This document shows positions 3,098 to 20,900 of a stretch of DNA of 64,000 nt, piece by piece. Origin of the DNA: Magnetococcales bacterium HCHbin5 (lineage in GTDB: Bacteria; Pseudomonadota; Magnetococcia; Magnetococcales; Magnetaquicoccaceae); contig PEAG01000001.1 in assembly GCA_002753505.1 (NCBI GenBank), positions 124,001 to 188,000 on the forward strand. The letters are read 5' to 3'. The translations under genes and the position numbers were made by a program. Each line of letters opens with the position of its first letter. Positions within the stretch are counted from its first letter, which is position 1. The notes beneath the pieces were generated by a model that was not told the origin of the DNA, made no database searches, and saw only the letters and a list, made by a program, of their open reading frames with translations.

Positions 3098-3205
3098 GTA
3101 AAAAAGCGTTCCCGCTGAAAGGAACCAATCGATGATCGTGGCTGGGACTGGCCACTGCGGGGGATGATATGGGCAAGCCTGCTTCTATTCAATGGGGATA
3201 ATCAA

Positions 3206-4204
3206 ATGACAACCTGCACGCAATGCCACAGAACGGTGGCGGATACGGCCTTTTTTTGCCCAAACTGCTCCAGCCCGCTGTTCCGGGATAGTGGACCGGC
3301 TGCCTCTTCGGCCACCGCTTCGACGGCAGCGGTTGTCTCTCCTTGGGGTGTGGCTGCTGCAACGACAGCGTTGCCCGACCGTACCCCGCCAGCGCGCTAT
3401 CCCCGCGCCAAACGTTGCCATGAGGTGGATTATGAGATCATTGGCCATGATACCCAGTTGGTTGAGATAGAGCTGGACCCGGGTGAAACGGTCATTGCAG
3501 AAGCGGGTGCCATGAATTACATGGAAGACGGTATTGTGTTTGCCGCCAAGATGGGGGATGGTTCCACCCCCGATGCAGGCATTTTTTCCAGCCTGTTGGC
3601 GGTGGGACAGCGACTCTTGACGGGTGAATCGCTGTTTGTCACCCATTTCACCAATGAAGGGGTGGGAAAACGGCGGGTCGCATTTGCGGCCCCTTTTCCA
3701 GGCCGCATTATCCCGCTGGATTTGGCAGCCTTGGGTGGAGAGGTTTTGTGTCAAAAGGATGCCTTTCTATGTGCCGCCCTGGGTACCTCTGTTGGTATTG
3801 CCTTTACCCAGCGGTTGGGGGCTGGCTTTTTTGGCGGGGAAGGCTTTATTTTGCAAAAACTGGTTGGCGATGGTTTTGCCTTTCTGCATGCCTGTGGAGC
3901 CATTGTCCAAAAGGAGCTGAGGGGAGAGTTGCTGCGGGTGGATACCGGCTGTCTGGTGGCCATGACCCCCGGCATTGACTATACCATTGAACGAGCCGGG
4001 GGACTCAAATCGATGTTTTTTGGGGGCGAGGGGCTTTTTTTGGCAACATTACAGGGGCATGGTACCGTTTGGTTGCAGAGTCTGCCTTTTTCCCGTTTGG
4101 CAGACCGTATCCTGGCCAACAGTTCCAGCTCACAGGGGGGAGGAGGGGAGAGTCAGGGGGAGTCTTCCCTGCTGGGTAATTTGGGCCGATTTATCGAGAG
4201 GTAA
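3206..4204 (+). CDS. TIGR00266 / AIM24-like protein with N-terminal zinc ribbon
   Basis: 332 residues. The N-terminus has a double CxxC zinc ribbon (CTQC at residues 4-7, CPNC at about 22-25), then an Ala/Thr/Pro linker to about residue 75. The rest matches the TIGR00266/AIM24 beta-barrel family: [33 protein letters not shown], a Gly-rich [12 protein letters not shown] repeated as [12 protein letters not shown], and [17 protein letters not shown]. Family function in bacteria is unknown; the mitochondrial relative AIM24 affects inner-membrane organisation. ATG 3206 is preferred over the frame-open 3164 because GGGGA lies 7 nt upstream and the zinc ribbon begins there. The C-terminus is Ser/Gly-rich. 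Confidence 0.85.
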
Positions 4205-4604
4205 CTGTTTTGACCCAACCGGTTTTTCCCAGGGGTCAGGGCCGCCATCTGTCGACTGCACCAGCAAAAAGGGGACAGGCCATTTATTTGTTTTGCAGAG
4301 GCGGGTCAAGTTTGTTACCATTGCGCCGGTGCTGTGTGTGGGCGTTGTCGTTGCAAGTCCGCAGGGTTGATTCTCCAGGTCATACCACATAAACCGCGCT
4401 GGCACCCGCTGTGTGTCAGCACCTCTGTAAGAGCACCCCTCCTTCTTGAAACCGTAAGTCGTGGAGTCGCGTGGGTGGTTCCTGTCGTTGACCGGTGGGC
4501 CGTCTTTTGCGCCGGTATTATTTCTGTTGATCCAGGCTGGTTATATTAATATTTACAGGAAAATCTCGTCACAGAGATGTTTCCTTCCATGGGGATCCCT
4601 TTCA
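4205..4604 (+). other. 400-bp intergenic region before rimK
   Basis: No convincing coding frame: the short ORFs here lack a ribosome site and family resemblance. I see no strong hairpin followed by T residues after the TIGR00266 gene. An AT-rich patch (4547-4558, TTATATTAATAT) about 45 nt upstream of rimK is the most promoter-like stretch, but no clean -35/-10 pair can be assigned. It probably contains the rimK promoter and leader. Confidence 0.3.
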
Positions 4605-5510
4605 ATGAAAATACTTATGCTGGCCTGCAATCCCAATCTCTATTCCCATCGTCGTCTGGTGGAGGCTGCGACAACGCGGGGCCATCAAATGGATATTGTC
4701 AACACCTTGCGCTGTTTTGTGAATATTACCTCCCATCGGCCGGACGTACGCTACGGAACCGTGCGACTGACCGATTATGATGCGGTCATTCCGCGTATTG
4801 GTGCCTCGGTCACCTTTTATGGGTTGGCCATTCTGCGCCAGTTTGAGATGATGGGGGTTTTCCCCCTCAACGAATCGGTGGCCATTGGGCGTTCGCGGGA
4901 CAAATTGCGTTCGCTGCAACTCATGGCCAGGGATGGCATCGGTCTGCCTGTGACCGCCTTTGCCCATGATACCCAGCGTACCGAGGATGTGATTGAAATA
5001 GCTGGCGGGGCTCCGGTGGTGATCAAGTTGTTGGAGGGTACCCAGGGGGTTGGGGTGGTGTTGGGAGAGACCCACAAGTCAGCCAAATCGGTGATCGAGG
5101 CGTTTCGTGGTGCCAAGGTGAACATTCTGGTGCAGGAGTATATCAAGGAGGCGGGGGCCACCGATATCCGGGCCCTGGTGGTGGACGACAAGGTGGTTGC
5201 TGCCATGCAACGGACCGGGGCTGAAGGGGAGTTTCGTTCCAACCTGCATCGGGGCGGCAGTGCCAAGCCAATCCGCATCACCCCGGAGGAGCGCAGCACG
5301 GCGGTCCGCGCGGCCAAGTGCATGGGGCTGAATGTGTGTGGTGTCGATCTATTGCGTTCCAATCACGGCCCGGTGGTCATGGAGGTCAACTCCTCACCCG
5401 GACTGGAGGGGGTGGAAAAGGCTACTGGTATCGATGTGGCCGGGCTGATTATCGATTTTCTGGTCCGGCGCGCCAAGGTTGGCAGAACGCAAACGAGAGG
5501 CAGGGGATGA
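4605..5510 (+). CDS. rimK: RimK: ATP-dependent ribosomal protein S6 glutamate ligase
   Basis: 301 residues, matching the usual RimK length (about 300). RimK is an ATP-grasp ligase that adds glutamate residues to the C-terminus of ribosomal protein S6 and can make poly-glutamate. Family sequence runs the full length: [88 protein letters not shown] and the metal-site stretch [18 protein letters not shown] 4605 is chosen over the open upstream frame because the conserved N-terminus starts there and GGGGA lies 9 nt upstream. The next gene is convergent, so rimK is probably monocistronic. Confidence 0.93.
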
Positions 5511-5599
5511 CGGCAGATTCTGTGCTGCGGAGGGGGATCCGCCGCCCGGTTTTTCCCGGCGTGCCGTGACTGCGGTTTCAGGGACACCAGTCGGCTCTG

Positions 5600-6676
5600 T
5601 TACTCCACGACAAGCTGTTCAATGGTGCGGGTGTTCCAATCCAGCACAGCGGCGCGTTTGGTCATCTTGGCGGCCAGGTTGCTGAACTCTTCCCGTAATA
5701 CCTTGCTGGCGAAAGAGGCGAGGAAACGGGATTTCAGTTCCGCCCGTGCCCGGTCAACCCCAATCTCATCATAGGGAGCCGCAGCCAGCAACAAAAAGCC
5801 GTCATCTGGAATGCGGCCTGCCTTCATGTTGTTTTCAATGATGGCGGCGGCTTTTCGCAGCGGGTCGGCCAAATCCGGGCTGTAGGGTCCAATAATCAGC
5901 GCAAGATTGGGGGTATGCAAAAAATCAAATCCACGTCCCAGACAAATCATCCACTCATGGTGTTCCACACTGAGCTGGCGTTCCTGTCGCCGCAGTTGTT
6001 CCCGCACCACGGCAATATGTTCCAGGTTGCCGTACAGCAAAGGCAGCAGGTCGGCCCGCATCTGAACCGGCATATCGGGTAGAATGGCCGTCAATTGTGG
6101 CTCCAGCGTTACGGCGTCAGCCGCCGCAACAGTCGCCAGATTGAGGTTGGTTCCATTGTTGCCGTGGATCACCAGGGCGTCTTCATCGGTTTCAAAACCA
6201 CATACCAGTGGATAAACAGTGCGATGGTCACCACCAAATATGTATTCCACTTGGCGACGGATTTCGTAGGTGTGAGCGATCGCGGATTCCGTATTGTAGT
6301 GGAAACCGGCACAGTCCCGTTCGGGGTCACCCTTTGACCAATGATAGGTGATCAGGATAAGTACCCGCCGACCCGAGTTGGTCATGCGGAGAACGTGATG
6401 GGCCAATACTTCGCCCATATGCGGCCAGCCCAGATCAAAGATGCCACCCAGGTTGCGAAAGGGCATCAGAATGCCGGTGGGAGTGTTGGTGGCGAAAGGA
6501 ATATTGATACGACCATCCATGCACTTCAGCACCACAATGGCTGTGGGATGTTTGGCCAGATAGTGTCGCCGTGCCAGCCAGGCCTCTGGACTGCGAAAGG
6601 TCTCACCGTATCGATGAGCAAGCTCAAACAGCCAATCCACACGTTCCGCAATAGGCTTGTTGTGCATGTCACTCAT
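5600..6676 (-). CDS. Putative zinc carbonic anhydrase-like protein (CsoSCA-type motifs)
   Basis: 358 residues. The N-terminal half carries a beta-carbonic-anhydrase-like metal signature: Cys-Met-Asp-Gly-Arg (LKCMDGRINIP), then, after a 'FRNLGG' stretch, a His and Cys separated by ten residues (HWSKGDPERDCAGFH). The C-x-D-x-R plus H-x(10)-C pattern recalls the carboxysome shell enzyme CsoSCA more than ordinary beta enzymes (H-x2-C). The C-terminal half lacks an obvious second motif set. Expected role is reversible CO2 hydration, but no RuBisCO or shell genes lie nearby, so the role is uncertain. Start ATG 6676 has AAGGAA about 9 nt upstream. It is transcribed divergently from the ATP-grasp cluster. 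Confidence 0.6.
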   Translation of the reverse strand: MSDMHNKPIAERVDWLFELAHRYGETFRSPEAWLARRHYLAKHPTAIVVLKCMDGRINIPFATNTPTGILMPFRNLGGIFDLGWPHMGEVLAHHVLRMTNSGRRVLILITYHWSKGDPERDCAGFHYNTESAIAHTYEIRRQVEYIFGGDHRTVYPLVCGFETDEDALVIHGNNGTNLNLATVAAADAVTLEPQLTAILPDMPVQMRADLLPLLYGNLEHIAVVREQLRRQERQLSVEHHEWMICLGRGFDFLHTPNLALIIGPYSPDLADPLRKAAAIIENNMKAGRIPDDGFLLLAAAPYDEIGVDRARAELKSRFLASFASKVLREEFSNLAAKMTKRAAVLDWNTRTIEQLVVE

Positions 6677-6933
6677 GAAACCGTTCCTTGTGGTTGTCTG
6701 TTATTGCCCAATCATTTTTTTTATCAGACAAAACGGCCAGAGGCAGATTTGCCGCTGGCGTGGAGCCAAAAAAGCGGGATCACTCATACCATAACCGAAT
6801 AGGGGTGAAAACCGTTTTTGCCGAGCCTCGATAAAAAAGCGGTGTGATGGTACACTTCCCCCTTTGTTGCGGGGTGTTCAATTCCTGGAATCTCCCCTCG
6901 TCTTCAGCATCGTCATTATGGCCTGAAAACAGA

Positions 6934-9495
6934 ATGATTGTTTCCCCACACGCCCTGACCACCTCCTCCCTGAGCCCATTCCTGGAAGGATATCAACTCT
7001 CTTCCGGTTGGGATGAGCTGTTTGCCGCTGATGGCAGCGTGCGCCCGGCCTGGCAGGAAATTATCACTTTTCTGGAACAAATGGGTTCCAGGCAATTGGA
7101 AAGCTGTCGCATTGAGAGCCAACGGTTGCTGCGCGAATCGGGTGTCACCCACAACCTTTACGGCGGTACCAAAACGCCCAAACTGCCCTGGGAGCTTGAC
7201 CTGCTGCCCTATGTGATCACCGGGCCGGAGTGGTCACTGCTGGAACGTGGATTGCAGCAACGGATCGTCCTGCTGGGCATGATCTTGACCGATTTGACGG
7301 GACCGGAAAAATTGTTTCGGGATGGTTTGTTGCCGCCGGAACTTTTTTTTGCCCATCCGGCCTGGCATCCCACCTGGCACAATCTGCGTGCGTCTGGAGC
7401 CTTTCCACTGACCTTTTGTGCGGTCGATCTGGCGCGACGCAGTGACGGCGGATTTGCCGTATTGGCGGACTATTGCGATATGCCCTCCGGGGCGGGTTAT
7501 GTGCTGGAAAATCGAATGATTTTGACCAGAGTGATCCCGGGTCTGTTCAAACAGCTGAACATACGCCGCCTGCTGCCATTTTTTGCCTCCCTGCGCAGTA
7601 ACCTGGAGGCACTGGCTGTCAACAACCCGCAGGATCCCCACATTGTCATGATGGCTGGCGGGTTGATGAAAGAGGCCAACTTTGAGCAGGTTTTTCTCTC
7701 CAACTATTTGGGATTGACCCTCGCCCAGGGAGATGACATGACGGTGCGTAACGGCCGTCTTGCCATCAAAACACTGGATGGGTTGCGACCGGTCGACGTG
7801 ATTTTGCGGCGGGTGGCCGACATCGACTGTGACTCCCTCGAGCTGCGTGGAGATTGTTGCCAGGGTGTGACCGGCCTGATGCACGCGCTGCGGCGCGGCA
7901 CGCTGGGTATGGCCAATGCGCCCGGTACCGGTATGCTGGAAAATTTGGGCCTGATACCGTATCTGCCAGAGTTGTGTCGGGCCCTGCTGGGAGAGGATCT
8001 GCTGCTGCCATCGATTGCCACCTGGTGGTGCGGTGACCCCGTTCAACGCCATCATGTCATCGCCCATTTCAACGACATGGTCATCAAGCCCTTGCGCCCC
8101 ATGGCCAGCGAACCCGTGACCGTTGTCAGTGAAGTGAGCCATGCGGTGCGGGAGCAACTGTTGGAGCGGATCAAGCGCAACCCGGCCCTTTATGTGGGTC
8201 AACTCCCCTTTCAACCGGGGACGGCCCCCGTACTGAGTGCTGGCCGCATTGAACCCAAATCCGTGGTCGTGCGGAGCTTTATCACCGCCAACCGCAAAGA
8301 GCGGGAGGTGTTGCCGGGTGGGTTGGCCCGTTTTTCTGTTCAGCATGCCCACTCAAAAGAGCAATATGATGTCAGCAAGGGGGTCTGGATCCTCTCTGAC
8401 GAACCGGCACCGCCCACCCCGAGGGCGCGGGATCTGCATCCCATCGAGGCCCCCCTGCTGGTGGGAGAGTTGCCCAGCCGGGTGGCGGAAAACCTGTTCT
8501 GGATCGGTCGTTACGCGGAACGGGCCGAGTATGCCATTCGGATCATGCGCACCATTCTCCTGCTGTGGCACGAGGAGAGCAGCTTGCCGGAAGACCAAAG
8601 TCAACAATGTCTGAAAATTCTTCTGGTCACCTTTGCCCGCATTACCGGGGGGGCCCCGGCTTTCCTGGGTGAGGATGCCGAAAGCCGATTGGCCGACCCG
8701 GAGGAGACACTGCTGGCCGCCATTCTCAATGCGGACCAGCCCGGTTCCATCACCTCCATGCTGGCCGCTCTCGTGCGCAGTACCCAGATGGTACGGGAGC
8801 GGTTCAGTCTGGATACCTGGCAGGTCATCCAGCAGATCATCAAGGGGTTGGAGGGGATGCAAACCAGTCGCGACTACCGTTTGTCAGAGATTCGGCGCGA
8901 GATTGATCTTTTCATCACTCTGTTGATGGCCTTTTCCGGGCAAATCATGGAGAGCATGACCCAGGGGCAGGGATGGCGTTTTCTCAATTCGGGCAGGCGG
9001 TTGGAACGGGCCATTTATACCATTGGTTTGGTGGAAGGCACGATGATAAAGCAGATTCAAACCCAGCACGAAAATGCTGTCCTTGAGTTTTTGCTTATCA
9101 TCACCGACAGTTTGATCACCTTTCGACGCCGCTATCGCTCACGCCTGGAGGCTCGACCAGTGCTGGACCTGATTTTGTTGGATGAAACCAACCCGCGTTC
9201 GCTGGCCTTTCAGATCCAGGCCCTGGACGAACACGCTGCCCATCTGCCCCGTTCGCGCCGCATGCCCAGCTATCGCTCGCCGGAAGGACGCATCACTCTG
9301 GATGCGCTATCGGCTCTGCGGCTGGCGGATCCTCAGTTGATTTCCGTTACAGCGCGAGAGGAGGGGACGCACCGGCCAAATCTGGAAGAGCTGTTGCTGC
9401 ATATCAATGGTCTGCTCTCTGTCTATTCGGCAACCCTCTCCAGCAGCTTTTTTCAACACACCCAGCCGCGCAAGCAGTTGGCAGCCATTTTTTAA
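6934..9495 (+). CDS. Fused circularly permuted ATP-grasp / alpha-E protein
   Basis: 853 residues. Residues about 70-470 are a circularly permuted ATP-grasp ligase (DUF404/DUF407 type): YVLENRMILTRVIPG near 188, DVILRRVADIDCDSLELRGD near 287, GTLGMANAPGTGMLEN near 322. Residues about 507-840 form an alpha-E (DUF403) helical domain beginning LPSRVAENLFWIGRYAERAE. Such proteins are predicted to join amino acids or peptides, the alpha-E domain acting as partner; no substrate is established. The frame is open from 6844, but MIVSPHAL at 6934 is the last ATG before conserved sequence; no start has a strong ribosome site. It heads a five-gene co-directional cluster with transglutaminases. The downstream split copy encodes the same two domains as separate proteins. 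Confidence 0.85.
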   Translation: MIVSPHALTTSSLSPFLEGYQLSSGWDELFAADGSVRPAWQEIITFLEQMGSRQLESCRIESQRLLRESGVTHNLYGGTKTPKLPWELDLLPYVITGPEWSLLERGLQQRIVLLGMILTDLTGPEKLFRDGLLPPELFFAHPAWHPTWHNLRASGAFPLTFCAVDLARRSDGGFAVLADYCDMPSGAGYVLENRMILTRVIPGLFKQLNIRRLLPFFASLRSNLEALAVNNPQDPHIVMMAGGLMKEANFEQVFLSNYLGLTLAQGDDMTVRNGRLAIKTLDGLRPVDVILRRVADIDCDSLELRGDCCQGVTGLMHALRRGTLGMANAPGTGMLENLGLIPYLPELCRALLGEDLLLPSIATWWCGDPVQRHHVIAHFNDMVIKPLRPMASEPVTVVSEVSHAVREQLLERIKRNPALYVGQLPFQPGTAPVLSAGRIEPKSVVVRSFITANRKEREVLPGGLARFSVQHAHSKEQYDVSKGVWILSDEPAPPTPRARDLHPIEAPLLVGELPSRVAENLFWIGRYAERAEYAIRIMRTILLLWHEESSLPEDQSQQCLKILLVTFARITGGAPAFLGEDAESRLADPEETLLAAILNADQPGSITSMLAALVRSTQMVRERFSLDTWQVIQQIIKGLEGMQTSRDYRLSEIRREIDLFITLLMAFSGQIMESMTQGQGWRFLNSGRRLERAIYTIGLVEGTMIKQIQTQHENAVLEFLLIITDSLITFRRRYRSRLEARPVLDLILLDETNPRSLAFQIQALDEHAAHLPRSRRMPSYRSPEGRITLDALSALRLADPQLISVTAREEGTHRPNLEELLLHINGLLSVYSATLSSSFFQHTQPRKQLAAIF

Positions 9496-9506
9496 GACGG
9501 GATGCC

Positions 9507-10412
9507 ATGCATTACCATATCACCCACCGCACCCAATACCTCTACAATGAGCCGGTCAGTCTTTCCCACAATATTCTGTTGCTTACCCCACGGACAACCC
9601 GGTTTCAACAACTCAACCGCTTTGAGACACGCATTGATCCCAAACCCAGCCTGATGGAGGAGATGAGCGACCGATTCGGCAACAGCAAACGTTACTTTGA
9701 AATTCATGAATCCCATGAGGTTCTCAACATTACCGCTCGGAGTGAGGTTACAACCTGCAGGCGCGATCTCTCCATCCTGGAGCGTTCCATGCCCTGGGAG
9801 CAGGTGGTACGCCGACTTCGAGAGGATCGTGACGCGAAATCCATTCTTAACCGCTTGTTTTTGCTTGTTTCTCCGTTGGCTGAACCCGGCAAGGCCATAC
9901 TCGATTTTGTCACCCCCTCCTTTCCCCCCGGTCGTCCCGTGCTGGAAGCGGTATGGGATCTGACCGGGCGGATTCATCAGGGATTTCGCTATGCGCCCGG
10001 CAGTACCGAGATCTCCACCCCCCTGCATGAGGTGATGAAACGTCGTGAAGGGGTGTGTCAGGATTTTGCCCATCTCCAGATCGCTGCCCTGCGCCTCATG
10101 GGATTGGCGGCCTGTTATGTCAGCGGTTACCTGGAAACCCGTCCCCCCCCTGGTCAACCCCGATTGGTCGGGGCAGACGCCTCCCATGCCTGGATCGCGG
10201 TCCGTATTCCGGATCTGGGTTGGATACCCTTTGACCCTACAAATAATGTGGTTGCTGGAGAGAGCCATATCATGGTAGCCTGCGGGCGCGATTATAGTGA
10301 TGTAGCTCCGGTCAGCGGCATCATCATAGGGGGATCGCACCACACCCTGGAGGTCTCCGTGGATGTGCTGCCGGTCCCGGAGAACGCCTTTCATGGTTCC
10401 GGTAAAACCTGA
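9507..10412 (+). CDS. Transglutaminase-like cysteine protease family protein
   Basis: 301 residues. The N-terminal bacterial transglutaminase-like region (MHYHITHRTQYLYNEPVSLS) is followed by the catalytic core with all three expected residues: Cys in EGVCQDFAHL (about 183), His in DASHAWIAV (about 228) and Asp in PFDPTNN (about 243). Family members without an animal-type context are thought to act as cysteine proteases or amidases rather than cross-linkers. No signal peptide is visible, so it is probably cytoplasmic. It starts 11 nt after the fused ATP-grasp gene and is followed 36 nt later by the large DUF2126 protein, so translation is likely coupled within one operon. Confidence 0.88.
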   Translation: MHYHITHRTQYLYNEPVSLSHNILLLTPRTTRFQQLNRFETRIDPKPSLMEEMSDRFGNSKRYFEIHESHEVLNITARSEVTTCRRDLSILERSMPWEQVVRRLREDRDAKSILNRLFLLVSPLAEPGKAILDFVTPSFPPGRPVLEAVWDLTGRIHQGFRYAPGSTEISTPLHEVMKRREGVCQDFAHLQIAALRLMGLAACYVSGYLETRPPPGQPRLVGADASHAWIAVRIPDLGWIPFDPTNNVVAGESHIMVACGRDYSDVAPVSGIIIGGSHHTLEVSVDVLPVPENAFHGSGKT

Positions 10413-10448
10413 ACCCCATGCCGTAAATTGATAGATGAGAGTTGTTCC

Positions 10449-13400
10449 ATGTCCATTCGTATTGCCCTGCGCCATCGTACCCTCTACCACTATGACCGCC
10501 TTGTCAGCCTGTCGCCCCATGTGATTCGGTTACGCCCTGCGGTCCATACCCGCACCCCCATCCTTTCCTACTCTTTGCGGGTGCGTCCAGAGAACCACTT
10601 TATCAATTGGCAACAGGATCCGTTTGGCAATTTTCTGGCCCGGCTGGTCTTTCCAGACAAGACCCGCTCGTTGGAAATCGATGTCGAACTGGTTGCCGAA
10701 CTCTCTGTCATCAATCCGTTCGATTTTTTTGTCGAAGAGTATGCGGAAAACTATCCGTTTCGCTATGATGCCCAACTCAAGCAGGAGTTGATCCCCTATT
10801 GTCAGATTCGGGATGACGGCCCGCTGTTGCGGGAACTGCTCGCCACTGTGGACCGCACAAAGTGCAGAACCGTTGATTTTTTGGTGGCTCTCAACCGGCA
10901 GGTCTACCAGAAAGTGGGTTATACCATTCGGGTACAGGCGGGGGTGCAGAGCTGCGAGGAGACCCTGACCCTGAAGACCGGCTCCTGCCGTGACAGTACC
11001 TGGTTGTTGGTTCAGCTCATGCGCCATTTGGGGTTGGCGGCCCGCTTTGTCTCCGGCTATCTGGTTCAGTTGGCCCCGGACGCAAAAAATCTCGATGGTC
11101 CATCCGGTCCAGAGAAAGATTTTACCGACCTGCACGCATGGGCAGAGGTCTATCTGCCGGGGGCGGGTTGGGTGGGGTTGGATCCCACCTCGGGTCTTTT
11201 TGTCGGTGAGGGACATATCCCGTTGGCCTGTACTCCCGATCCGGTCAGTGCCGCTCCGGTGACGGGTCTGACGGATCTGTGTGAGGTCAGCTTTGAATAC
11301 GACAACAGCGTCAAACGGATTCACGAAGATCCCCGCGTCACCAAGCCCTACAGCAGTGATCAGTGGCAACTGATCGACGCCTTGGGTCGCAAGACCGATG
11401 CGCTGCTGCGGGAGATGGATGTACGCCTGACCATGGGGGGAGAGCCCACCTTTGTCTCCATCGACGACATGGATGGCGCAGAGTGGACCGTCGCTGCCCT
11501 GGGTGAACATAAACGGGCCCTGGCCGGTGATCTGCTCCGCCGTCTGCGCGATGCGTTTGCCCCTGGAGGTGTACTCCATTTTGGGCAGGGAAAGTGGTAT
11601 CCGGGGGAGCCACTGCCTCGGTGGGCCTTGGCCTGTCTGTGGCGCAGCGATGGTTTGCCTTTGTGGCAGGATGCCGCTCTGCAAGCCGATGAAACCCGTG
11701 ATTATGGCCACGGTGTGCAGGAAGCCCGGCGGTTTGCCGAGGCACTGGCCTGTCGTTTGGGACTTTCCAGCCGCTTTGTCATGGCCGCATTTGAGGATCC
11801 GTTTCATGCGGTTTGGCAAGAGAATAATTTGCCGGAAAATCTGGATCCATTGGCCCTGAATCTCGCCGATCCCGCAGAACGTCGCCGCCTCGCCAATATT
11901 TTATCGCGCGGTTTGAATAGCCCGGCCGGCTATGTTCTACCCTTGGGGGCGGCTGGAGAGGGCTGGCGATCCAGCGTCTGGCCATTGCGTCGCCGGCAAC
12001 TCTTCTTGTTACCAGGGGACTCCCCGATCGGCTTCCGTCTGCCGCTGGAAAGCCTGCCCTGGCTGGCCCCCGAAAAACGGGAGGAGTCCTTTGCCGAAGA
12101 CCCCATGCAGAGCCATCCCCCCCTGGGCCAGTATGATGGTTTGGCAGCCGTCGGGGCGGTTCAGCAACCCTCAACCGGGAAGGTGGAAGCGGTAGAGGTG
12201 ATTCACACCGCCCTCTGCCTGGAGGCCCGTGACGGTCGTCTGCACCTGTTTTTGCCCCCCTTGACCCGTCTGGAGGAGGCCGCTGATCTGCTGGCCCGTA
12301 TCGAAGCGACCGCTGCAGAACTCAACATGCCCGTGGTGCTGGAGGGGTACGAGCCTCCGCGGGATTATCGCCTGAAACGGCTGCTGGTCACCCCCGATCC
12401 GGGGGTGATTGAGGTCAATATCCACCCCGCCACCTCCTGGGAAGAGCAGGTATCCATCACCGAAACCCTCTATGCCCAGGCCCGCCTTGCCCGCCTGGGC
12501 ACGGAAAAATTTATGGTGGATGGTCGTCATACCGGCACCAGCGGTGGCAATCATATCACGCTTGGGGGGATCACCCCGGCGGACAGCCCGCTGTTGCGTC
12601 GACCGGATCTGCTGCGCAGCCTGATCACCTATTGGCAACATCATCCCGGCCTCTCCTACCTGTTCAGTGGCCTGTTTATCGGTGCAACCAGTCAGGCCCC
12701 CAGGGTGGATGAGGGACGGGATGAGGCACTCTATGAGCTGGAAATCGCCTTTCGGGAGATGCCTGACAGCAGCAGTGGTGCCAAGGTTGCCCCCTGGCTG
12801 GTGGACCGTTTGCTGCGCAATTTGTTGGTGGATATTACCGGCAACACCCATCGGGCCGAGTTTTGCATCGATAAGCTCTACTCCCCGGACGGCCCGGCCG
12901 GTCGTCTCGGTCTGCTGGAGCTGCGTGCCTTTGAGATGCCTCCCCATGCGCAAATGAGTCTGGCCCAAACCCTGTTGCTGCGCTGTCTGGTTGCCTGGTT
13001 CTGGCAGCAACCCTATCGCAAACCGTTGACCCATTGGGGTACGGAGCTGCATGACCGCTTTTTGCTGCCCCATTTTGTTCGTGCCGATATGCGGGATGTC
13101 TGCCGCGATCTTCGGGAGGCCGGTCTGCCCTTTCTGCCGGAGTGGCTTGAGCCCTTCATGGAGTTTCGCTTTCCCCATTATGGCACCCTGGATCTGGAAG
13201 GGATACGCATTGAGCTGCGGATGGCACTGGAACCGTGGAATGTGCTGGGCGAGGAGGTCAGCCGGTCAGGGGTCTCCCGCTTTGTCGACTCCTCCATGGA
13301 ACGGCTGGAGGTCGTGGTCAGCGGCATGACGGAGGGACGGCATGCGTTGTTGTGCAACGGTCGTCGTCTGCCCTTGCGTGCTACCGGTATTCATGGGGTC

Positions 13401-13787
13401 CATGTGGTCGGAGTGCGGTATCGTGCCTGGCACCCCCCTTCCGCCCTGCATCCCACCATCGGTATTCACTCCCCTCTGGTTTTTGATCTGATCGACACCT
13501 GGAACGGGCGACCGTTGGGTGGCTGCACCTACCATGTCGCCCACCCGGGGGGACGCAACTATGAAACCTTTCCGGTCAACGCCTTTGAGGCGGAGTCGCG
13601 CCGCATCGCCCGTTTCTGGGATATGGGGCATACCCCTGGTCCGCTGCAACATCCGCCCGCGCAGGCCGGGTTGGGCAGCTTTGTTCCCCAGGGCAGCCTG
13701 GATCCCCCCAAGGCACCCCTCACGGAGGAGTGGAACCCGGCCTATCCCTATACGCTGGACTTGCGTCGTCGCCCGGATTGGGAATAA
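10449..13787 (+). CDS. Large transglutaminase / DUF2126 protein
   Basis: 1112 residues. Residues 1-290 repeat the transglutaminase-like layout: N-terminal region RHRTLYHYDRLVSLSPH, then Cys in KTGSCRDSTWLL (about 180), His in LHAWAEVYLPG (about 229) and Asp in GLDPTSG (about 244). From MGGEPTFVSIDDMDGAEW (about 328) to the end is the long DUF2126 region, including FMVDGRHTGTSGGNHITLGG and a basic C-terminus. The family normally lies beside ATP-grasp/alpha-E genes, as here. No signal peptide or membrane segment is seen. ATG 10449 is preferred to a TTG at 10428 because the conserved MSIRIALRH start and a GATGAGAG stretch 8 nt upstream fit it. Biochemical activity is not established. Confidence 0.9.
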   Translation: MSIRIALRHRTLYHYDRLVSLSPHVIRLRPAVHTRTPILSYSLRVRPENHFINWQQDPFGNFLARLVFPDKTRSLEIDVELVAELSVINPFDFFVEEYAENYPFRYDAQLKQELIPYCQIRDDGPLLRELLATVDRTKCRTVDFLVALNRQVYQKVGYTIRVQAGVQSCEETLTLKTGSCRDSTWLLVQLMRHLGLAARFVSGYLVQLAPDAKNLDGPSGPEKDFTDLHAWAEVYLPGAGWVGLDPTSGLFVGEGHIPLACTPDPVSAAPVTGLTDLCEVSFEYDNSVKRIHEDPRVTKPYSSDQWQLIDALGRKTDALLREMDVRLTMGGEPTFVSIDDMDGAEWTVAALGEHKRALAGDLLRRLRDAFAPGGVLHFGQGKWYPGEPLPRWALACLWRSDGLPLWQDAALQADETRDYGHGVQEARRFAEALACRLGLSSRFVMAAFEDPFHAVWQENNLPENLDPLALNLADPAERRRLANILSRGLNSPAGYVLPLGAAGEGWRSSVWPLRRRQLFLLPGDSPIGFRLPLESLPWLAPEKREESFAEDPMQSHPPLGQYDGLAAVGAVQQPSTGKVEAVEVIHTALCLEARDGRLHLFLPPLTRLEEAADLLARIEATAAELNMPVVLEGYEPPRDYRLKRLLVTPDPGVIEVNIHPATSWEEQVSITETLYAQARLARLGTEKFMVDGRHTGTSGGNHITLGGITPADSPLLRRPDLLRSLITYWQHHPGLSYLFSGLFIGATSQAPRVDEGRDEALYELEIAFREMPDSSSGAKVAPWLVDRLLRNLLVDITGNTHRAEFCIDKLYSPDGPAGRLGLLELRAFEMPPHAQMSLAQTLLLRCLVAWFWQQPYRKPLTHWGTELHDRFLLPHFVRADMRDVCRDLREAGLPFLPEWLEPFMEFRFPHYGTLDLEGIRIELRMALEPWNVLGEEVSRSGVSRFVDSSMERLEVVVSGMTEGRHALLCNGRRLPLRATGIHGVHVVGVRYRAWHPPSALHPTIGIHSPLVFDLIDTWNGRPLGGCTYHVAHPGGRNYETFPVNAFEAESRRIARFWDMGHTPGPLQHPPAQAGLGSFVPQGSLDPPKAPLTEEWNPAYPYTLDLRRRPDWE

Positions 13788-13880
13788 AAAAGGGGATGCA
13801 ACAAAACTGTGTACCTTGTTTGTAACAAGAGAGCAGTAAGTGGTTACAATCCTTGGTCGGCTGTTCGGGAGAATGGGAAT

Positions 13881-15332
13881 ATGGGCATTGATTGGGGCAA
13901 CTATCCGCGTGGAACATTTTACGACGAGTTGATCGATCATCACGGGATGCCACGCCCTTATGCACAGTTGGTATGCGACCACATTGCCGGCTTGAGCCCG
14001 GAGGCGTTGCACCTGCGTCAGGTGGCGGCGGAGCTGGCGGTGGTCAACCTGGGTATCACCTTTACCATCTATTCCGATGCGGGCAACATTGACCGCTCCT
14101 GGCCGTTCGACATCATCCCCCGGATCATTGATCTGACCGAGTGGCGTCGGGTTCGGGAGGGGCTGGTGCAGCGGGTGACCGCCTTGAACCTGTTCATTGA
14201 CGACCTGTACAACGCCCAGAAAATTATCAAAGACGGTGTTTTCCCCGGGGAGTTGCTGGCCGATTCCCGCAATTTTCGCCCCCAGTGTGTCGGCATGCAT
14301 CCCAAACACGGCGTTTGGGCCCACGTGTGCGGCTCGGATCTGCTCCGGGACCGGGATGGTACCCTCTATGTGCTGGAGGACAATTTGCGGGTGCCGTCCG
14401 GGGTCTCTTACATGTTGGAAAACCGCTTGATCACCAAGCGGGTATTTCCCGAACTGCTGCGCAGTCTGGCACCGTTGCCGGTGGATGATTATCCCTCCCA
14501 CCTGTTTGATACCCTGGCCAGTTTGAGTCCTCGCCCTGGAGAGGTGCCGTGCGTGGTGGTTCTGACCCCGGGCATCTACAACTCGGCCTATTTTGAGCAT
14601 GCCTATCTGGCCCAGCAGATGGGGGTGGAGTTGGTGGAGGGACGCGATCTGGTGGTGGATGAAGATGATTGTCTCTACATCAACACCATTTTTGGAGCCA
14701 AACGGGTCGATGTCATTTATCGCCGGGTGGATGATCTGTTTATCGATCCCGAGGTATTCAATCCCGAGTCCACCCTGGGCGTGAAGGGGATGATGCGGGC
14801 CTGGCGCAAGGGCAAAGTGGCCTTGGCCAATGCCCCCGGTTCGGGGGTGGCCGATGACAAGGTGGTTTATGCCTTTGTCCCGCAAATGATCCGCTACTAT
14901 CTGGACCAGGATCCCATCCTGCCCAATGTGCATACCTACAAGTGCATGGTTCCAGCCGAGCGGGCCTACGTTCTCGATCATCTGGATGAGTTGGTGGTGA
15001 AGCCGGCCAATGAGTCTGGCGGTTATGGCATGTTGATCGGTCCGCACGCCAGTGTGGAGGATCGACGCACATTTGCAGCCCTTATTCAGGAAAATCCCCG
15101 CAATTATATTGCCCAGCCAACCCTGACCATGTCCACCGCGCCGACAGTATTTGGCACCCAGGTGGAGCCCCGCCATTTGGATTTGCGACCCTTTATCCTG
15201 CAGGGAGAAAAACATCAACTGACCGCTGGCGGCCTGACCCGGGTGGCACTGCGCAAGGGTTCCCTGGTGGTGAACTCTTCCCAGGGGGGTGGCAGCAAGG
15301 ATACCTGGATTGTCGATTTGGGAGGGAAATGA
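13881..15332 (+). CDS. Circularly permuted ATP-grasp protein (split form)
   Basis: 483 residues with the full circularly permuted ATP-grasp pattern (DUF404/DUF407): LEDNLRVPSGVSYMLENR near 163, DVIYRRVDDLFID near 275, GKVALANAPGSGVADDK near 310, ELVVKPANESGGYGMLIG near 372. It is thus a second copy of the N-terminal half of the fused protein at 6934-9495, but without the alpha-E domain, which is encoded by the next gene. It is predicted to catalyse ATP-dependent peptide or amide bond formation on an unknown substrate. ATG 13881 follows GGGAATATG-type purine-rich sequence; a GTG at 13809 would add 24 unconserved residues. The alpha-E gene begins 2 nt after its stop. Confidence 0.9.
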   Translation: MGIDWGNYPRGTFYDELIDHHGMPRPYAQLVCDHIAGLSPEALHLRQVAAELAVVNLGITFTIYSDAGNIDRSWPFDIIPRIIDLTEWRRVREGLVQRVTALNLFIDDLYNAQKIIKDGVFPGELLADSRNFRPQCVGMHPKHGVWAHVCGSDLLRDRDGTLYVLEDNLRVPSGVSYMLENRLITKRVFPELLRSLAPLPVDDYPSHLFDTLASLSPRPGEVPCVVVLTPGIYNSAYFEHAYLAQQMGVELVEGRDLVVDEDDCLYINTIFGAKRVDVIYRRVDDLFIDPEVFNPESTLGVKGMMRAWRKGKVALANAPGSGVADDKVVYAFVPQMIRYYLDQDPILPNVHTYKCMVPAERAYVLDHLDELVVKPANESGGYGMLIGPHASVEDRRTFAALIQENPRNYIAQPTLTMSTAPTVFGTQVEPRHLDLRPFILQGEKHQLTAGGLTRVALRKGSLVVNSSQGGGSKDTWIVDLGGK

Positions 15333-15334
15333 CC

Positions 15335-16333
15335 ATGTTGTGTCGCGTTGCTGAAAATATCTACTGGATGGCACGTTATCTGGAGCGGGCTGAAAACATG
15401 GCCAGACTGCTGATTGTCACCACCCATGCCCTGCTGGATGCCCCCATTTTTATGCGTAACGATCAAAAAGGCGGCAAGGGCAGCGATTTTTTGTCTACCG
15501 TCGGTTATGGGACCGATTGGCCCTCGCTGGTGATTATTACCGGTGGTCAGGATCTGTTTGCCCGATCGGGCCAAGTGGCCAACGAGGAGTCGGTGATGCG
15601 GTTCATGACCTGCGACAAGGAGAATCCCAGCTCCATTCTCTCTTCGCTCTTCTCGGCCCGGGAAAATTTACGTACAACCCGTGACCTTTTCCCCCGCAAG
15701 GCGATGGAGTACCTGAATGCCATGTATCTGGGCTTCAAGGAGCAGATCGATGCCGGCTTGCAGGATGAGGGGATACTCTACAAGACTCTGGACCACGTGA
15801 TTCAGGATAGCCAAAAGATAACCGGCCTGCTGTTTGGAACCATGAGCCGGAACAGTGCCTTCGAGTTTTTTCGTCTTGGGCAGATTATTGAGCGGGCGGA
15901 TATGACCACCCGCATTCTCGATGTGGGCGGGGTAAGCATGCGGGGTATTTTGAAAGACCCGACCATGTTGCCGTTTATCAACTCCATCTGGTTGAACATA
16001 TTGCGTGCCCTTTCCGGCGAGCAGATGTACCGCCACCATGTCAATCCGCGCATCCGACTGCCGGAGGTGTTGACCTTTTTGCTCATGGATGAGCAGTTTC
16101 CACGGGCTTTCAACTGCTGCCTGGGTACCGTCTCCTTCAGTTTGACCAATCTGGTCAACAATGAGGCTCCTTTGATCACGGTGAGCAACATGAAATCGAC
16201 CCTGCACACTGCCGACCTCAACGCCCTGTTGCAAAAGGATCAGCTGCCGGCTTTTCTCGATCAGTTGCAAAAAGAGCTGGGCCATTTGTGCGATGAGATC
16301 AACCGGGTCTATTTTCCAACCCTGGCGGCCTGA
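15335..16333 (+). CDS. Alpha-E domain protein (DUF403), partner of the split ATP-grasp
   Basis: 332 residues, all alpha-E domain, beginning MLCRVAENIYWMARYLERAE, the typical family start. ATG 15335 is chosen because GGGAGGG (15320-15326) is 8 nt upstream; ATG 15329 overlaps the previous stop and is too close to it. It contains an Asn/Asp/Ser-rich insert (residues about 40-90) relative to the fused copy, then the helical core FFRLGQIIERADMTTRILD. Alpha-E proteins almost always accompany a circularly permuted ATP-grasp enzyme, presumably as a complex. A hairpin overlapping the stop codon may end the transcript. Confidence 0.9.
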   Translation: MLCRVAENIYWMARYLERAENMARLLIVTTHALLDAPIFMRNDQKGGKGSDFLSTVGYGTDWPSLVIITGGQDLFARSGQVANEESVMRFMTCDKENPSSILSSLFSARENLRTTRDLFPRKAMEYLNAMYLGFKEQIDAGLQDEGILYKTLDHVIQDSQKITGLLFGTMSRNSAFEFFRLGQIIERADMTTRILDVGGVSMRGILKDPTMLPFINSIWLNILRALSGEQMYRHHVNPRIRLPEVLTFLLMDEQFPRAFNCCLGTVSFSLTNLVNNEAPLITVSNMKSTLHTADLNALLQKDQLPAFLDQLQKELGHLCDEINRVYFPTLAA

Positions 16334-16345
16334 CGCCGGGCCGCC
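16324..16345 (+). terminator. Possible terminator hairpin after the alpha-E gene
   Basis: A 7-bp perfect GC stem, GGCGGCC (16324-16330) with GGCCGCC (16339-16345), has an 8-nt loop that includes the stop codon. There is no T-run, so it may act as an attenuating or mRNA-stabilising hairpin rather than a strong intrinsic terminator. Confidence 0.3.
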
Positions 16346-16575
16346 TGACGCTGAAAGGAACTGGCCGGGTCGGGGATGCAAGCGGCCAGCCCTCCCCGCA
16401 AATCCGCTGGCAATGACGATGGATCCTGTTTTGCGGCCCTCGATTCATGCTATAAGGAGGCCCGTGGTGTTGCGCCTCTTGTCCACCCCAACGCCCCTCT
16501 GCCCCCTGCCTGGGAGAGGACCAGGGAGCCGGCAACCCTCCGCATGGTTTAATTTTTTTTGGGAGGAGACCAACG

Positions 16576-17913
16576 ATGGAGCAAAAAAGGGTGGATTTGT
16601 CCCTGCTGAAGAGCCCGGATTACAAGGGATCGGTGCAAAATCTCTATCACCTGCAGGATGGCAGCGACTGCATGGTGTGCGAGACCACCGCGTCGGGTTC
16701 GGTCTTTGATGTGGGTTCCATCTTCAGCATCGCCGGCAGCGACCTTTGCCGGGCCGCTTTCCGCCATTTTATCTTCTCCCTCATGCACGCGCCGACCGCC
16801 TGGCAGGCGGTTGGGGATCAGCTGCAACAGGAGTATGGCGAAAAGCAACGTTTCCTGAACTTTATCCATGCCAAACGCTCGGACGGCAAAGGGTTGCTGG
16901 AACAGTTTCAGACCCATGGGGCCATGACACACCACCTGGGCATGATTGACCGGGCAACCGGGGTGGTCTACAAGGACGCTTTTCCGGCCCAGGTCAGCCC
17001 CTTTGTGCTGGTGGAAAAATTTACCGTCATCAAACCGCTGCCCATCTCCTACCGGTCCAGCCATTTTTGGGACTACTCCCCCTATAAAAACCAGACCCGT
17101 CACGTGGTGCCGTTGGAAAATATTGTCCGTCTGGGCATTACCTCCGGTTCCTCGCTGTACCAGAAATTTCTCCGCATGGGGGAGCAGCATCGGCGTCTCT
17201 TTCTGAAAGAGATGGGGGTGGAGGAGCTGCCGCTCTGGCGATTTTTCCCGGTGCCCATCGCCGACTTTACCAGCAAATATGAACCGGAGGACCGCGCCCT
17301 GAGCTACCAGGAGGCCCTGCATATTTCCGGTTGCAGCGGCGAACAGTTCCTGGATCTGATCCGCATGACCCTGTTGGGTACCCTGCTGGTGCAGGGTGTT
17401 TTCAAAGAACTCTCGCTGACACTCTGGGATATCAAGTGGGAAGTGGCCAGAAAGGGCAGCCAATTGCTCTTTGTGGATACCATCGATACCGACTCGCTCC
17501 GGGTGACCTGTACCGTGACGGAAGATGAACATGAAATGTTTGTTCACTTCAACAAACAGGCCATTCGTGACTATTACAAAATCATGCACGCCGATTGGAT
17601 CGAGGCCATCAAATCTTCCAAGGCGGAGGCTGCTGCCCATGGCGTCTCGTTTCACGAACTGCTGGAGGCGGGGCAAAAGTCGGGCCGTTATCCCAATACA
17701 CCTGTTATCCAGGAGTCATTCCTGAAAATTCAGGAGAAAAAATTTGCCGTTTTGCTGGCCCATATCCTGGAACGCTCCCAACAAGGTGATACCGCTGCCG
17801 CCCGCGTCGAACGGGCCCAGCAGGTGCGTGCCATCGCCCGGGAAGAGGTTGATTTTTACCGGCAGGCCGGGGCCATTCACTCCTATCTGGCCATCAATGG
17901 CCTGCGGCATTGA
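16576..17913 (+). CDS. purC: Divergent SAICAR synthetase (PurC-like)
   Basis: 445 residues, much longer than the usual PurC (about 240 in bacteria, 300 in fungi). PurC joins CAIR and aspartate in purine synthesis. Core motifs are present but altered: KGSVQNLYHL for GKVRDLY; VPLENIVRLGITSGSSLYQK for the IPLEVVVRNYxxGS segment; LWDIKWEV for LxDxKxEFG; FVDTIDTDSLRVT where the family reads DExxTPDSSR; FNKQAIRDYY for DKQxxRDW. Extra sequence surrounds these. A strong GGGAGGAG lies 7 nt upstream of ATG 16576. purL starts 3 nt after its stop, which strongly supports a purine role. It could instead be a paralogue acting on a different substrate. Confidence 0.75.
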   Translation: MEQKRVDLSLLKSPDYKGSVQNLYHLQDGSDCMVCETTASGSVFDVGSIFSIAGSDLCRAAFRHFIFSLMHAPTAWQAVGDQLQQEYGEKQRFLNFIHAKRSDGKGLLEQFQTHGAMTHHLGMIDRATGVVYKDAFPAQVSPFVLVEKFTVIKPLPISYRSSHFWDYSPYKNQTRHVVPLENIVRLGITSGSSLYQKFLRMGEQHRRLFLKEMGVEELPLWRFFPVPIADFTSKYEPEDRALSYQEALHISGCSGEQFLDLIRMTLLGTLLVQGVFKELSLTLWDIKWEVARKGSQLLFVDTIDTDSLRVTCTVTEDEHEMFVHFNKQAIRDYYKIMHADWIEAIKSSKAEAAAHGVSFHELLEAGQKSGRYPNTPVIQESFLKIQEKKFAVLLAHILERSQQGDTAAARVERAQQVRAIAREEVDFYRQAGAIHSYLAINGLRH

Positions 17914-17916
17914 CGG

Positions 17917-20900
17917 ATGGCAGAGATCCTTTCATCCCCAACGGACGATCACCCGACCCAGCCCCAGAGTGCGGATTTGGCCCATTTTGTCGTTCTGCCT
18001 GGCACAGAGGGCCCTTCGCCCTTCCGCCTGGAGGCCCTGCGGGGGGCGGGCGTTCCGCTGTCGGTGGCCCGTTATCTCCACTTTGCCACTCTGAAGGCTC
18101 CCCTTGACCCCCGGCAGCAGGCCCTGCTGGAGGCCCTGCTGTCGGTTGGTGTGGCGCAACCGGATGGCCAGGCGGCAACGCTGGCCCCGGCCGCAGACGC
18201 TGTGCTGGTCATTCCCCGGATCGGTTCCATCTCTCCCTGGTCAACCAAAGCCACCGAAATTGCCCACCGCTGTGGCTTGACCGAGGTGATTCGTCTGGAA
18301 CGGGGGTTGTGGTATGGTTTCGATCGGGTGTTGGAGCCCGGGGCACGCCAGCTCCTCTGGCCGCTGCTGCATGACCGCATGACCCAGCAGGTGGTGGAGC
18401 AGCTGGAACAGGCTCAGGCCCTGTTTCAGGCGACCCAACGCCGTCCACTGCTGACCATTCCCCTGCAACAGGAGGGCCGTGCCGCCCTGTCGTTGGCCAA
18501 TCAGCAGCTGGGTTTGGCCCTGTCGGAGGGGGAGTTGGACTACCTGTTGGCCCATTTCAGCCGCCTTGGGCGCGACCCGACCGATGTGGAGTTGATGATG
18601 TTTGCCCAGGCCAACTCGGAACATTGTCGACACAAAATTTTTAATGCCCGCTGGATCATCGATGGCCTGCCCCAGACTGAAAGCCTGTTTGGCATGATTC
18701 GCCATACGGAACGCTGTTCACCGCAAGGTACCGTCCTGGCCTATCGGGACAATGCCGCCATCATGGAGGGGGGGATCGGGCAGCGGTTTTATCCCGACCC
18801 GGAGAGCCGGGTCTACGGCTTTCATGGGGGTACCACCCACCTGCTGATGAAGGTGGAGACCCATAACCATCCCACCGCCATCTCTCCCTATCCGGGTGCC
18901 GCAACCGGCTCCGGCGGCGAGATTCGGGATGAGGGAGCGACCGGCCAGGGTTCGCAACCCAAGGGCGGGTTGACCGGCTTTTCGGTCTCCAATCTGCGCA
19001 TTCCCGGCCACGAACAGCCCTGGGAAATGGATCATGGCAAGCCGGAACATATTGTCTCTGCCCTGGAAATCATGGTGGAGGCCCCGTTGGGGGCGGCGGC
19101 CTTCAACAATGAGTTTGGCCGTCCCAATCTGACCGGCTATTTTCGCACCTTTGAGCAGGAGGTGGCCGGGGAGATTCGAGGCTATCACAAGCCCATCATG
19201 ATTGCCGGCGGGATGGGAAGCCTGGATGCCAGCCATGTGGAAAAACAGCCGATACCAGCCGGCAGCCTGATTGTGCAACTGGGAGGACCGGCCATGCTGA
19301 TCGGGCTGGGTGGGGGAGCGGCCTCTTCCCAGACCAGCGGCACTTCGCAGGCAGAGCTGGATTTCAAGAGTGTGCAGCGGGAAAATGCCGAAATGCAACG
19401 CCGTTGTCAGGAGGTCATCAACGGCTGTTGCCGGTTGGGGCGCGCCAACCCGATCCTCTCCATTCATGATGTCGGCGCAGGAGGGCTCTCCAATGCGGTC
19501 CCGGAGTTGCTGCATGGGGGCGGGGCAGGGGGGCGAATCCGGCTGGCCGCCATTCCCAATGCCGACCCGGCCATGTCGCCGATGGAAATCTGGTGCAATG
19601 AAGCGCAGGAGCGGTATGTGCTGGCCATCTCTCCCCTCCATCAGGGGGCGTTTGAGGCTCTGTGTGCCCGGGAACAGTGCCCGTTTGCCATTCTGGGAAG
19701 CGCGACCACAGAACAACATCTGTTGTTGGTGGATGAAACAACAACACCCCCTGCACTCGCCATCGATCTGCCGCTGGCGGTCTTGCTGGGCAATCCCCCC
19801 GCGATGGAGCGGCAGGTCAGCCGTCATACACCAACCCTGCCGCCGCTGCAGACCGCCGGCATTGAACTGGCCGAGGCGGCCCGGCGCGTTTTGCGACTGC
19901 CCACAGTGGCAGACAAAGGTTTTCTGATCACCATTGGCGACCGCTCGGTTACGGGCCTGGTTTGCCGGGACCAGATGGTCGGGCCCTGGCAGGTGCCGGT
20001 GGCGGATGTCGCGGTGACCTGTCGGGGGTATGAGGGGGTGGCAGGGGAGGCGATGGCGATGGGGGAGCGGACCCCGGTCGCCTTGATCAATGGCCCTGCT
20101 TCGGCCCGCCTGGCCATTGCAGAGGCGATCACCAATCTGGCAGCCGCCTCCATCGACCGTCTGCAACAGGTCAAGCTTTCCGCCAACTGGATGGCAGCGG
20201 CCGGTCATCCGGGGGAGGATGCTCGCCTGTTTGACACGGTGCGGGCGGTGGGACTGGAACTCTGCCCCCGGTTGGGCATCGGCATTCCGGTCGGCAAGGA
20301 CTCCCTCTCCATGAAAACGGTCTGGCAGACCGCCGCCGGAAAACAGCAGGTGGTTGCGCCGGTTTCGTTGATTGTTTCCGCCTTTGCGGCTGTGACGGAT
20401 GTACGCTCTACCCTTACCCCTCAATTGCGGCGGCAGCAGGGCGGCAGCAGGCTGATCCTGATTGATCTCAGTCGGCAAAAAAACCGTCTGGGCGGATCGG
20501 CCCTGGCTCAGGTCTATGCACAGTTGGGCAACGAATCCGCTGATCTGGACGAACCGGAGCTGCTGGTTGACTTTTTTGCCGCCATCCAGGCCCTGCATGG
20601 CGAGCAACGCATTTTATCCTACCATGATCGCAGCGACGGCGGTCTGTTTGTCACCCTGTGCGAGATGGCGTTTGCGGGTCATACCGGGTTGACGGTGGAG
20701 CTGGCCGATTTGGGCACAGAGCCGTTGGCCGTCCTGTTTGCCGAAGAGCCGGGCGCGGTCATTCAGGTTGCCCAGGCCGAGCTGTCGACGGTGCTGGCCC
20801 GGTTGGAGGGTATCGGCCATGTGCGTGCCATCGGTACGCTGAGCGAGGATGATCATCTCACCTTTTGCTGGCAGGGCCAATCCCTGCTGCGTGCCAGTCG

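Follow-up and report, generated by a model that had tools for sequence, protein, structure and literature searches.

A predicted CsoSCA2-type carbonic anhydrase gene in a Magnetococcales genome without matches to carboxysome shell or RuBisCO domains

What is the role of a gene that carries the active-site motifs of the carboxysomal carbonic anhydrase CsoSCA in a stretch of DNA where no RuBisCO or carboxysome shell gene occurs? This question is raised by a locus of Magnetococcales bacterium HCHbin5, found in a window (the whole stretch of DNA that was analysed) of 64,000 nucleotides from contig PEAG01000001.1. The gene occupies 5600..6676 on the minus strand, an intact open reading frame (ORF) with an ATG start that encodes 358 residues followed by a stop, exactly as given in a preliminary description made from the sequence alone, which had also correctly read it as convergent with rimK (4461-5510, plus strand; NCBIfam S6--L-glutamate ligase, 416.2 bits) and divergent from an ATP-grasp cluster (6844-16333, plus strand). 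A possible ribosome binding site, AAGGA at 6685..6689 on the minus strand, lies 8 nt ahead of the ATG and is a sequence match only. Scanning of positions 5400-7000 returned one promoter-like and one terminator-like site, numbers that do not exceed the means of shuffled sequence (1.0 and 2.1, respectively).

In a Pfam search at E <= 1, the encoded protein matched CsoSCA_cat (PF20686) only, with 22.6 bits against a cut-off of 21.5, and Pro_CA (PF00484), the domain of ordinary beta carbonic anhydrases, gave no match. The carboxysomal equivalog model TIGR02701 was matched at E 2.5e-9; however, the score of 36.5 bits is far under the cut-off of 241.05, while the carboxysomal copy encoded in genome G218 scores 712.9 bits. 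A search of the PDB sequences with the single protein was not significant (the best CsoSCA row, at E 0.23, stood behind an unrelated protein at 0.2). With a profile built from 36 sequences, five PDB sequences were found at E < 1e-5, all of them CsoSCA (E 9.4e-7 to 6e-6), the next two rows, at E 0.51 and 0.75, being carbonic anhydrases other than CsoSCA; hhalign of the same profile with the carboxysomal CsoSCA of G218 gave a probability of 96.2 and an E-value of 2.6e-9 over 226 columns. These results agree with the earlier impression that the protein resembles CsoSCA rather than ordinary beta carbonic anhydrases. Judged by its sequence, it is a relative of CsoSCA, distinct from carboxysomal CsoSCA itself.

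The window copy was aligned with 35 relatives, giving 36 sequences whose start codons were picked by a script. The catalytic half comprises residues 51-173 (6158..6526, minus strand), which give the CsoSCA_cat match. By homology, C52-x-D54-x-R56 (6509..6523) would provide a zinc cysteine and an Asp-Arg dyad, H112 (6341..6343) the zinc histidine and C122 (6311..6313) the second zinc cysteine. The C-x-D-x-R motif named in the preliminary description is present as C52-M-D54-G-R56, but the H-x(10)-C named beside it has to be amended to H112-x(9)-C122; a spacing of ten is the carboxysomal one, found in both carboxysomal sequences examined (an ORF of locus L024 and 9g4t). In all 36 aligned sequences, nine residues separate the histidine from the second cysteine and 59 separate the first cysteine from the histidine. 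C52, D54 and H112 are invariant (36/36), R56 and C122 are kept in 35/36, and the five residues occur together in 35 of the 36 sequences. The exception is a Nitrospiraceae copy, L087:8788-9894 (-), which has lost R56 and C122 while keeping a full-length frame, and whose sequence suggests that it is inactive or decaying.

Ahead of the catalytic half, residues 1-51 (6524..6676, minus strand) hold two helices predicted with low confidence (H9-26 and H30-42). This short stretch, with 51 residues before the first cysteine in the window copy and 45-63 across all 36 sequences as their starts were chosen by script, replaces the large N-terminal domain of carboxysomal CsoSCA. In the carboxysomal enzyme that domain is responsible for contact with RuBisCO and for hexamer formation. 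At the other end of the chain, the second half (residues 235-358; 5603..5974, minus strand) is beta-carbonic-anhydrase-like, according to the CsoSCA alignments and weaker beta carbonic anhydrase matches described below. Its sole cysteine in the window copy, C245, is Cys in just 24 of the 36 sequences (Gly in 11, Ala in one), so that conservation does not extend to a second Cys-His-Cys site, even though it does cover the histidines H239 (36/36) and H254 (35/36). A single active site per chain is therefore expected, as in CsoSCA.

A structural comparison with CsoSCA and with beta carbonic anhydrases, suggested in the preliminary description, points the same way, albeit from a weak model. The AlphaFold2 model was obtained from just seven seq­uences, and confidence in it is low to medium (mean pLDDT 62.7, pTM 0.54); pLDDT falls below 50 at residues 53-86 and 116-126, that is, around both motifs, which makes the model no guide to active-site geometry. 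Foldseek placed four CsoSCA chains on top (E 5.8e-7 to 5.0e-6, TM to query 0.37-0.44), followed by a row at E 1.5e-2. With VIA-align, the CsoSCA structures 9g4t, 8thm and 2fgy gave Z of 12.3, 11.9 and 10.8, in alignments of 260-275 residues that span both halves up to residue 358 with an rmsd of about 7 A. Five beta carbonic anhydrase entries followed at Z 5.9-5.2, among them matches to the second half alone (CafC, Z 5.8 and 5.5; pea, Z 5.2); these rows are weak support because a Z under 8 may reflect a mere common arrangement. The suggestion of a free-living relative of CsoSCA is thus supported by sequence profile, fold match and active-site conservation.

We consider it likely that the gene encodes a CsoSCA2-group carbonic anhydrase, a zinc enzyme of beta type that stands alone and works in the cytoplasm, and from the above we infer its zinc binding, its carbonic anhydrase activity and its physiological role. 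C52, H112 and C122 would hold the zinc and D54 would pair with R56, leaving the fourth zinc ligand position to water or hydroxide; type I beta carbonic anhydrase chemistry of this kind is described for CsoSCA in PMC11086599. The zinc-hydroxide would then interconvert CO2 and bicarbonate, in a chain of two fused beta-carbonic-anhydrase-like halves of which the first alone would have kept an active site. No signal peptide is seen by eye, which suggests a cytoplasmic location, and we propose that the protein is free in the cytoplasm because the large N-terminal domain is missing. There it would probably supply carboxylases with bicarbonate or CO2, and in some relatives the Dab inorganic-carbon pump may be a partner.

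The alternative to be taken most seriously, which we nevertheless regard as unlikely, is that the protein binds zinc without being mainly a carbonic anhydrase, acting as a CO2/bicarbonate sensor or as a hydrolase of another substrate; a different zinc enzyme had also been entertained in the preliminary description. It would accord with an identity of just 27% (90/336 aligned columns) to the carboxysomal CsoSCA of G218, and with the literature searched, where no activity assay of CsoSCA2 was found (most subscription papers and all supplements lay outside the search). The genes nearby also differ from one carrier to the next: Rhodocyclales loci have PLP enzymes and malic enzyme, L036 has rnf genes and then an HhH-GPD (nth-like) gene, L005 a threonine dehydratase, L034 a PLD-like protein and L013 an MFS protein, and kinase-domain ORFs lie near L003 and L034. 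Against this reading stand the five catalytic residues, intact in all but one aligned sequence, and two kinds of neighbourhood that point to inorganic carbon. One is that of G218 (locus L032), where CsoSCA2 lies behind a LysR-type regulator (region 8068-10124), with some 5 kb between it and a carboxysome locus (15066-18924) in which the carboxysomal CsoSCA adjoins CsoS2; the two types are separate genes in one genome. The other is the proximity of Nitrospiraceae copies to Dab genes.

The neighbourhood comparison comprised 36 loci, 21 of them from the Nitrospira family (18 genomes). DabA was found near CsoSCA2 in four loci, all of this family (4/21). In three, CsoSCA2 and dabA point away from each other across 0.7-1.0 kb (L008, 3-2525 and 3533-4591; L070, 8419-9477 and 10240-12714; L086, 5220-7736 and 8715-9788), and in L084 a Dab block starts about 4 kb from CsoSCA2. 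L086 holds in addition a second, short CsoSCA2 piece at 8375-8578, between the two genes. In L069, a DabB-like end lies 1.6 kb upstream of CsoSCA2 and is followed by the end of the contig. A DabB-like hit about 7 kb from CsoSCA2 in L074 was left uncounted, and a 668-aa Proton_antipo_M neighbour in L007 (Geobacteraceae) was rejected as Dab, genome G399 being without a DabA match. The count of four in 21 is a lower bound, because several loci are on short contigs (L061, L071, L072 and L075 have at most 5 kb); it is a plain count over related sequences, which are not independent events. The placing of Nitrospiraceae copies near the Dab pump in 4/21 loci is an addition made here, and the literature searched, again exclusive of most subscription papers and all supplements, yielded no mention of the pairing. 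Presence in the same genome says little, because DabA occurs in all five CsoSCA2 carriers but also in 36 of the 61 genomes overall; among the whole genomes searched, it was found in 5/9.

The kinase-domain ORFs near CsoSCA2 form one BLAST cluster, L003:11059-13068 (+), L034:6069-7760 (-) and L035:12247-13938 (+), from a Magnetococcales genome and two further proteobacterial genomes, L035 being assigned by cluster only; their proximity may be due to chance.

Around the window gene itself, the neighbours give no pointer to inorganic carbon. The cluster at 6844-16333 encodes two circularly permuted ATP-grasp proteins, Alpha-E domains, two transglutaminase-type proteins and a DUF2126 putative amidoligase; in one of its genes, ATP-grasp and Alpha-E are fused. 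Further off, at 3164-4204 (plus strand), stands a gene for an AIM24 / TIGR00266 protein whose N-terminus, by eye, is zinc-ribbon-like with two Cys pairs. None of the window genes in the first 24 kb, the CsoSCA2 gene aside, clustered with ORFs of 15 other loci, in a comparison where ORFs were picked mechanically, several flanks were short and in some loci a wrong-strand ORF was taken instead of CsoSCA2. A functional tie of the gene to rimK or to the ATP-grasp cluster was considered and is unsupported, neither having been met beside other copies.

CsoSCA2 was carried by five of 61 genomes, the window's own included, by 11 of 398 genomes sampled across the phylum (the same five among them), and, in part as fragments, by 22 of 175 genomes in the family to which G398, the Nitrospira genome with locus L008, belongs. 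From this family, 21 of the 22 longer places (> 250 model positions) were used, namely L008 and 20 others; G537 and the short fragments of G460, G549, G534, G461 and G479 were omitted. The named carriers are two Magnetococcales metagenome-assembled genomes (MAGs), two Azonexus MAGs and one MAG each of Rhodocyclaceae, Geobacteraceae and Nitrospira. The Magnetococcales copies are an addition made here: the string 'magnetococc' is absent from the main text of PMC9164163 (figures were outside the search), and a full-text search found no literature joining 'Magnetococcales' with 'carbonic anhydrase'. Plasmid and phage sequences gave no match to the gene, and none of 22 pattern-matching stretches on viral contigs encoded a relative.

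Within the order, the window copy is 76-78% identical to those of G002, G016/L003 (same family as the window's genome) and G020/L002 (same order), and just 61% identical to the copy of G003/L014, of the same genus. The tree places the window copy in one clade with copies from Magnetococcales and Rhodocyclales (7 rows, support 98/95), while G003/L014 falls outside this clade with no firm placement, for which transfer may be one reading on the sequence evidence. The tree is uninformative on which type came first, because the carboxysomal row sits on a very long branch. An insertion that is non-functional or of foreign origin, brought in by transfer or by assembly contamination, would fit the patchy occurrence of the gene in the 61 genomes, the absence of shared neighbour clusters, the divergent same-genus copy and an estimated contamination of 3.89%; nevertheless, this is highly improbable for a copy that is intact, keeps the catalytic residues and is so close to those of G002, G016 and G020.

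The host assembly has 4.19 Mb in 200 contigs and is 99.45% complete. At E <= 0.001, neither the BMC shell domain PF00936, nor the RuBisCO large chain PF00016, nor Pro_CA PF00484 was found in it. The lack of RuBisCO and shell genes noted earlier for the window therefore holds and extends to the whole genome, which sets the gene apart from carboxysome genes. A carboxysomal CsoSCA that has its carboxysome genes elsewhere in the genome, or lost them recently, would share the fold family and active-site residues of the protein; this reading is hardly credible, since the TIGR02701 score is far too low, the large N-terminal domain is missing, a nearly complete genome is without BMC or RuBisCO matches and both types coexist as separate genes in G218.

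The search for other carbonic anhydrases in this genome covered the alpha class and Pro_CA. An alpha carbonic anhydrase, with a signal-peptide-like N-terminus by eye, is encoded on contig C199, and a DabA gene, with a Proton_antipo_M protein on either side, on contig C87; neither shares the window's contig. Among the five carriers in the 61 genomes, four also have a PF00484 match over the cut-off, the exception being the window's genome, and CsoSCA2 was rejected as a general substitute for beta carbonic anhydrase on this ground; it may replace it in the window's own genome, though this is no rule. Two genomes of the same genus lack a clear copy of either gene, G004 (a sub-cut-off PF00484 match) and G005 (none).

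A broader scenario, which we think quite doubtful, would make CsoSCA2 the sole cytoplasmic carbonic anhydrase here, partnered with Dab in this and other lineages (most clearly in Nitrospiraceae) as a shell-free inorganic-carbon system for a pathway other than the Calvin cycle, with the carboxysomal enzyme as a later, encapsulated offshoot. CsoSCA2 is widespread, and a genome without RuBisCO, shell and Pro_CA matches is a clean setting for its role outside carboxysomes. The Nitrospiraceae copies beside Dab genes suggest a concrete partner, and the Dab neighbourhood is most worth following. PMC9239080, as far as its accessible text goes, deals with Nitrosospira and has no bearing on CsoSCA2 here.

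Among known systems, the carboxysomal CsoSCA of Halothiobacillus neapolitanus (2FGY/9G4T) and Cyanobium (8THM) shares with the window copy the Cys-His-Cys site, the Asp-Arg dyad and a zinc-less second half; the window copy differs by its H-x(9)-C where the carboxysomal enzyme has H-x(10)-C, and by the lack of a large N-terminal domain and of a cso operon. To ordinary beta carbonic anhydrase (Pro_CA) it has a weak fold likeness (Z 5-6) but no Pfam Pro_CA match, and it differs in being made of two halves fused into one chain, for which a single active site is expected. The closest likeness is to published stand-alone sequences. The family appeared in print as CsoSCA2 in 2022 (PMC9164163), where it is suggested that the carboxysomal enzyme may derive from it and where a second, more truncated variant is reported in Nitrospira and Accumulibacter; like the window copy, this variant is a stand-alone gene with a ~40-aa N-terminal domain of two predicted helices, an active and a defunct domain, and every catalytic residue. 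In 2024, the same orphan cluster, within the CsoSCA Pfam, was called 'non-cso sequences' (PMC11086599); like the window copy, these are shorter than the cso-associated enzymes, are without the N-terminal hook motif and have one predicted zinc site per pseudo-dimer, with CsoSCA as best structural match, but hydrogenases (NAD-linked or NiFe) or permeases are frequent among their neighbours, whereas the window copy stands between rimK and the ATP-grasp cluster. In PMC12646314, 15 CsoSCA2 sequences serve as outgroup. By its sequence features, the window protein fits CsoSCA2 as described in print, our tree being built from the relatives gathered here; the family is already in the literature, and the window gene is a further member.
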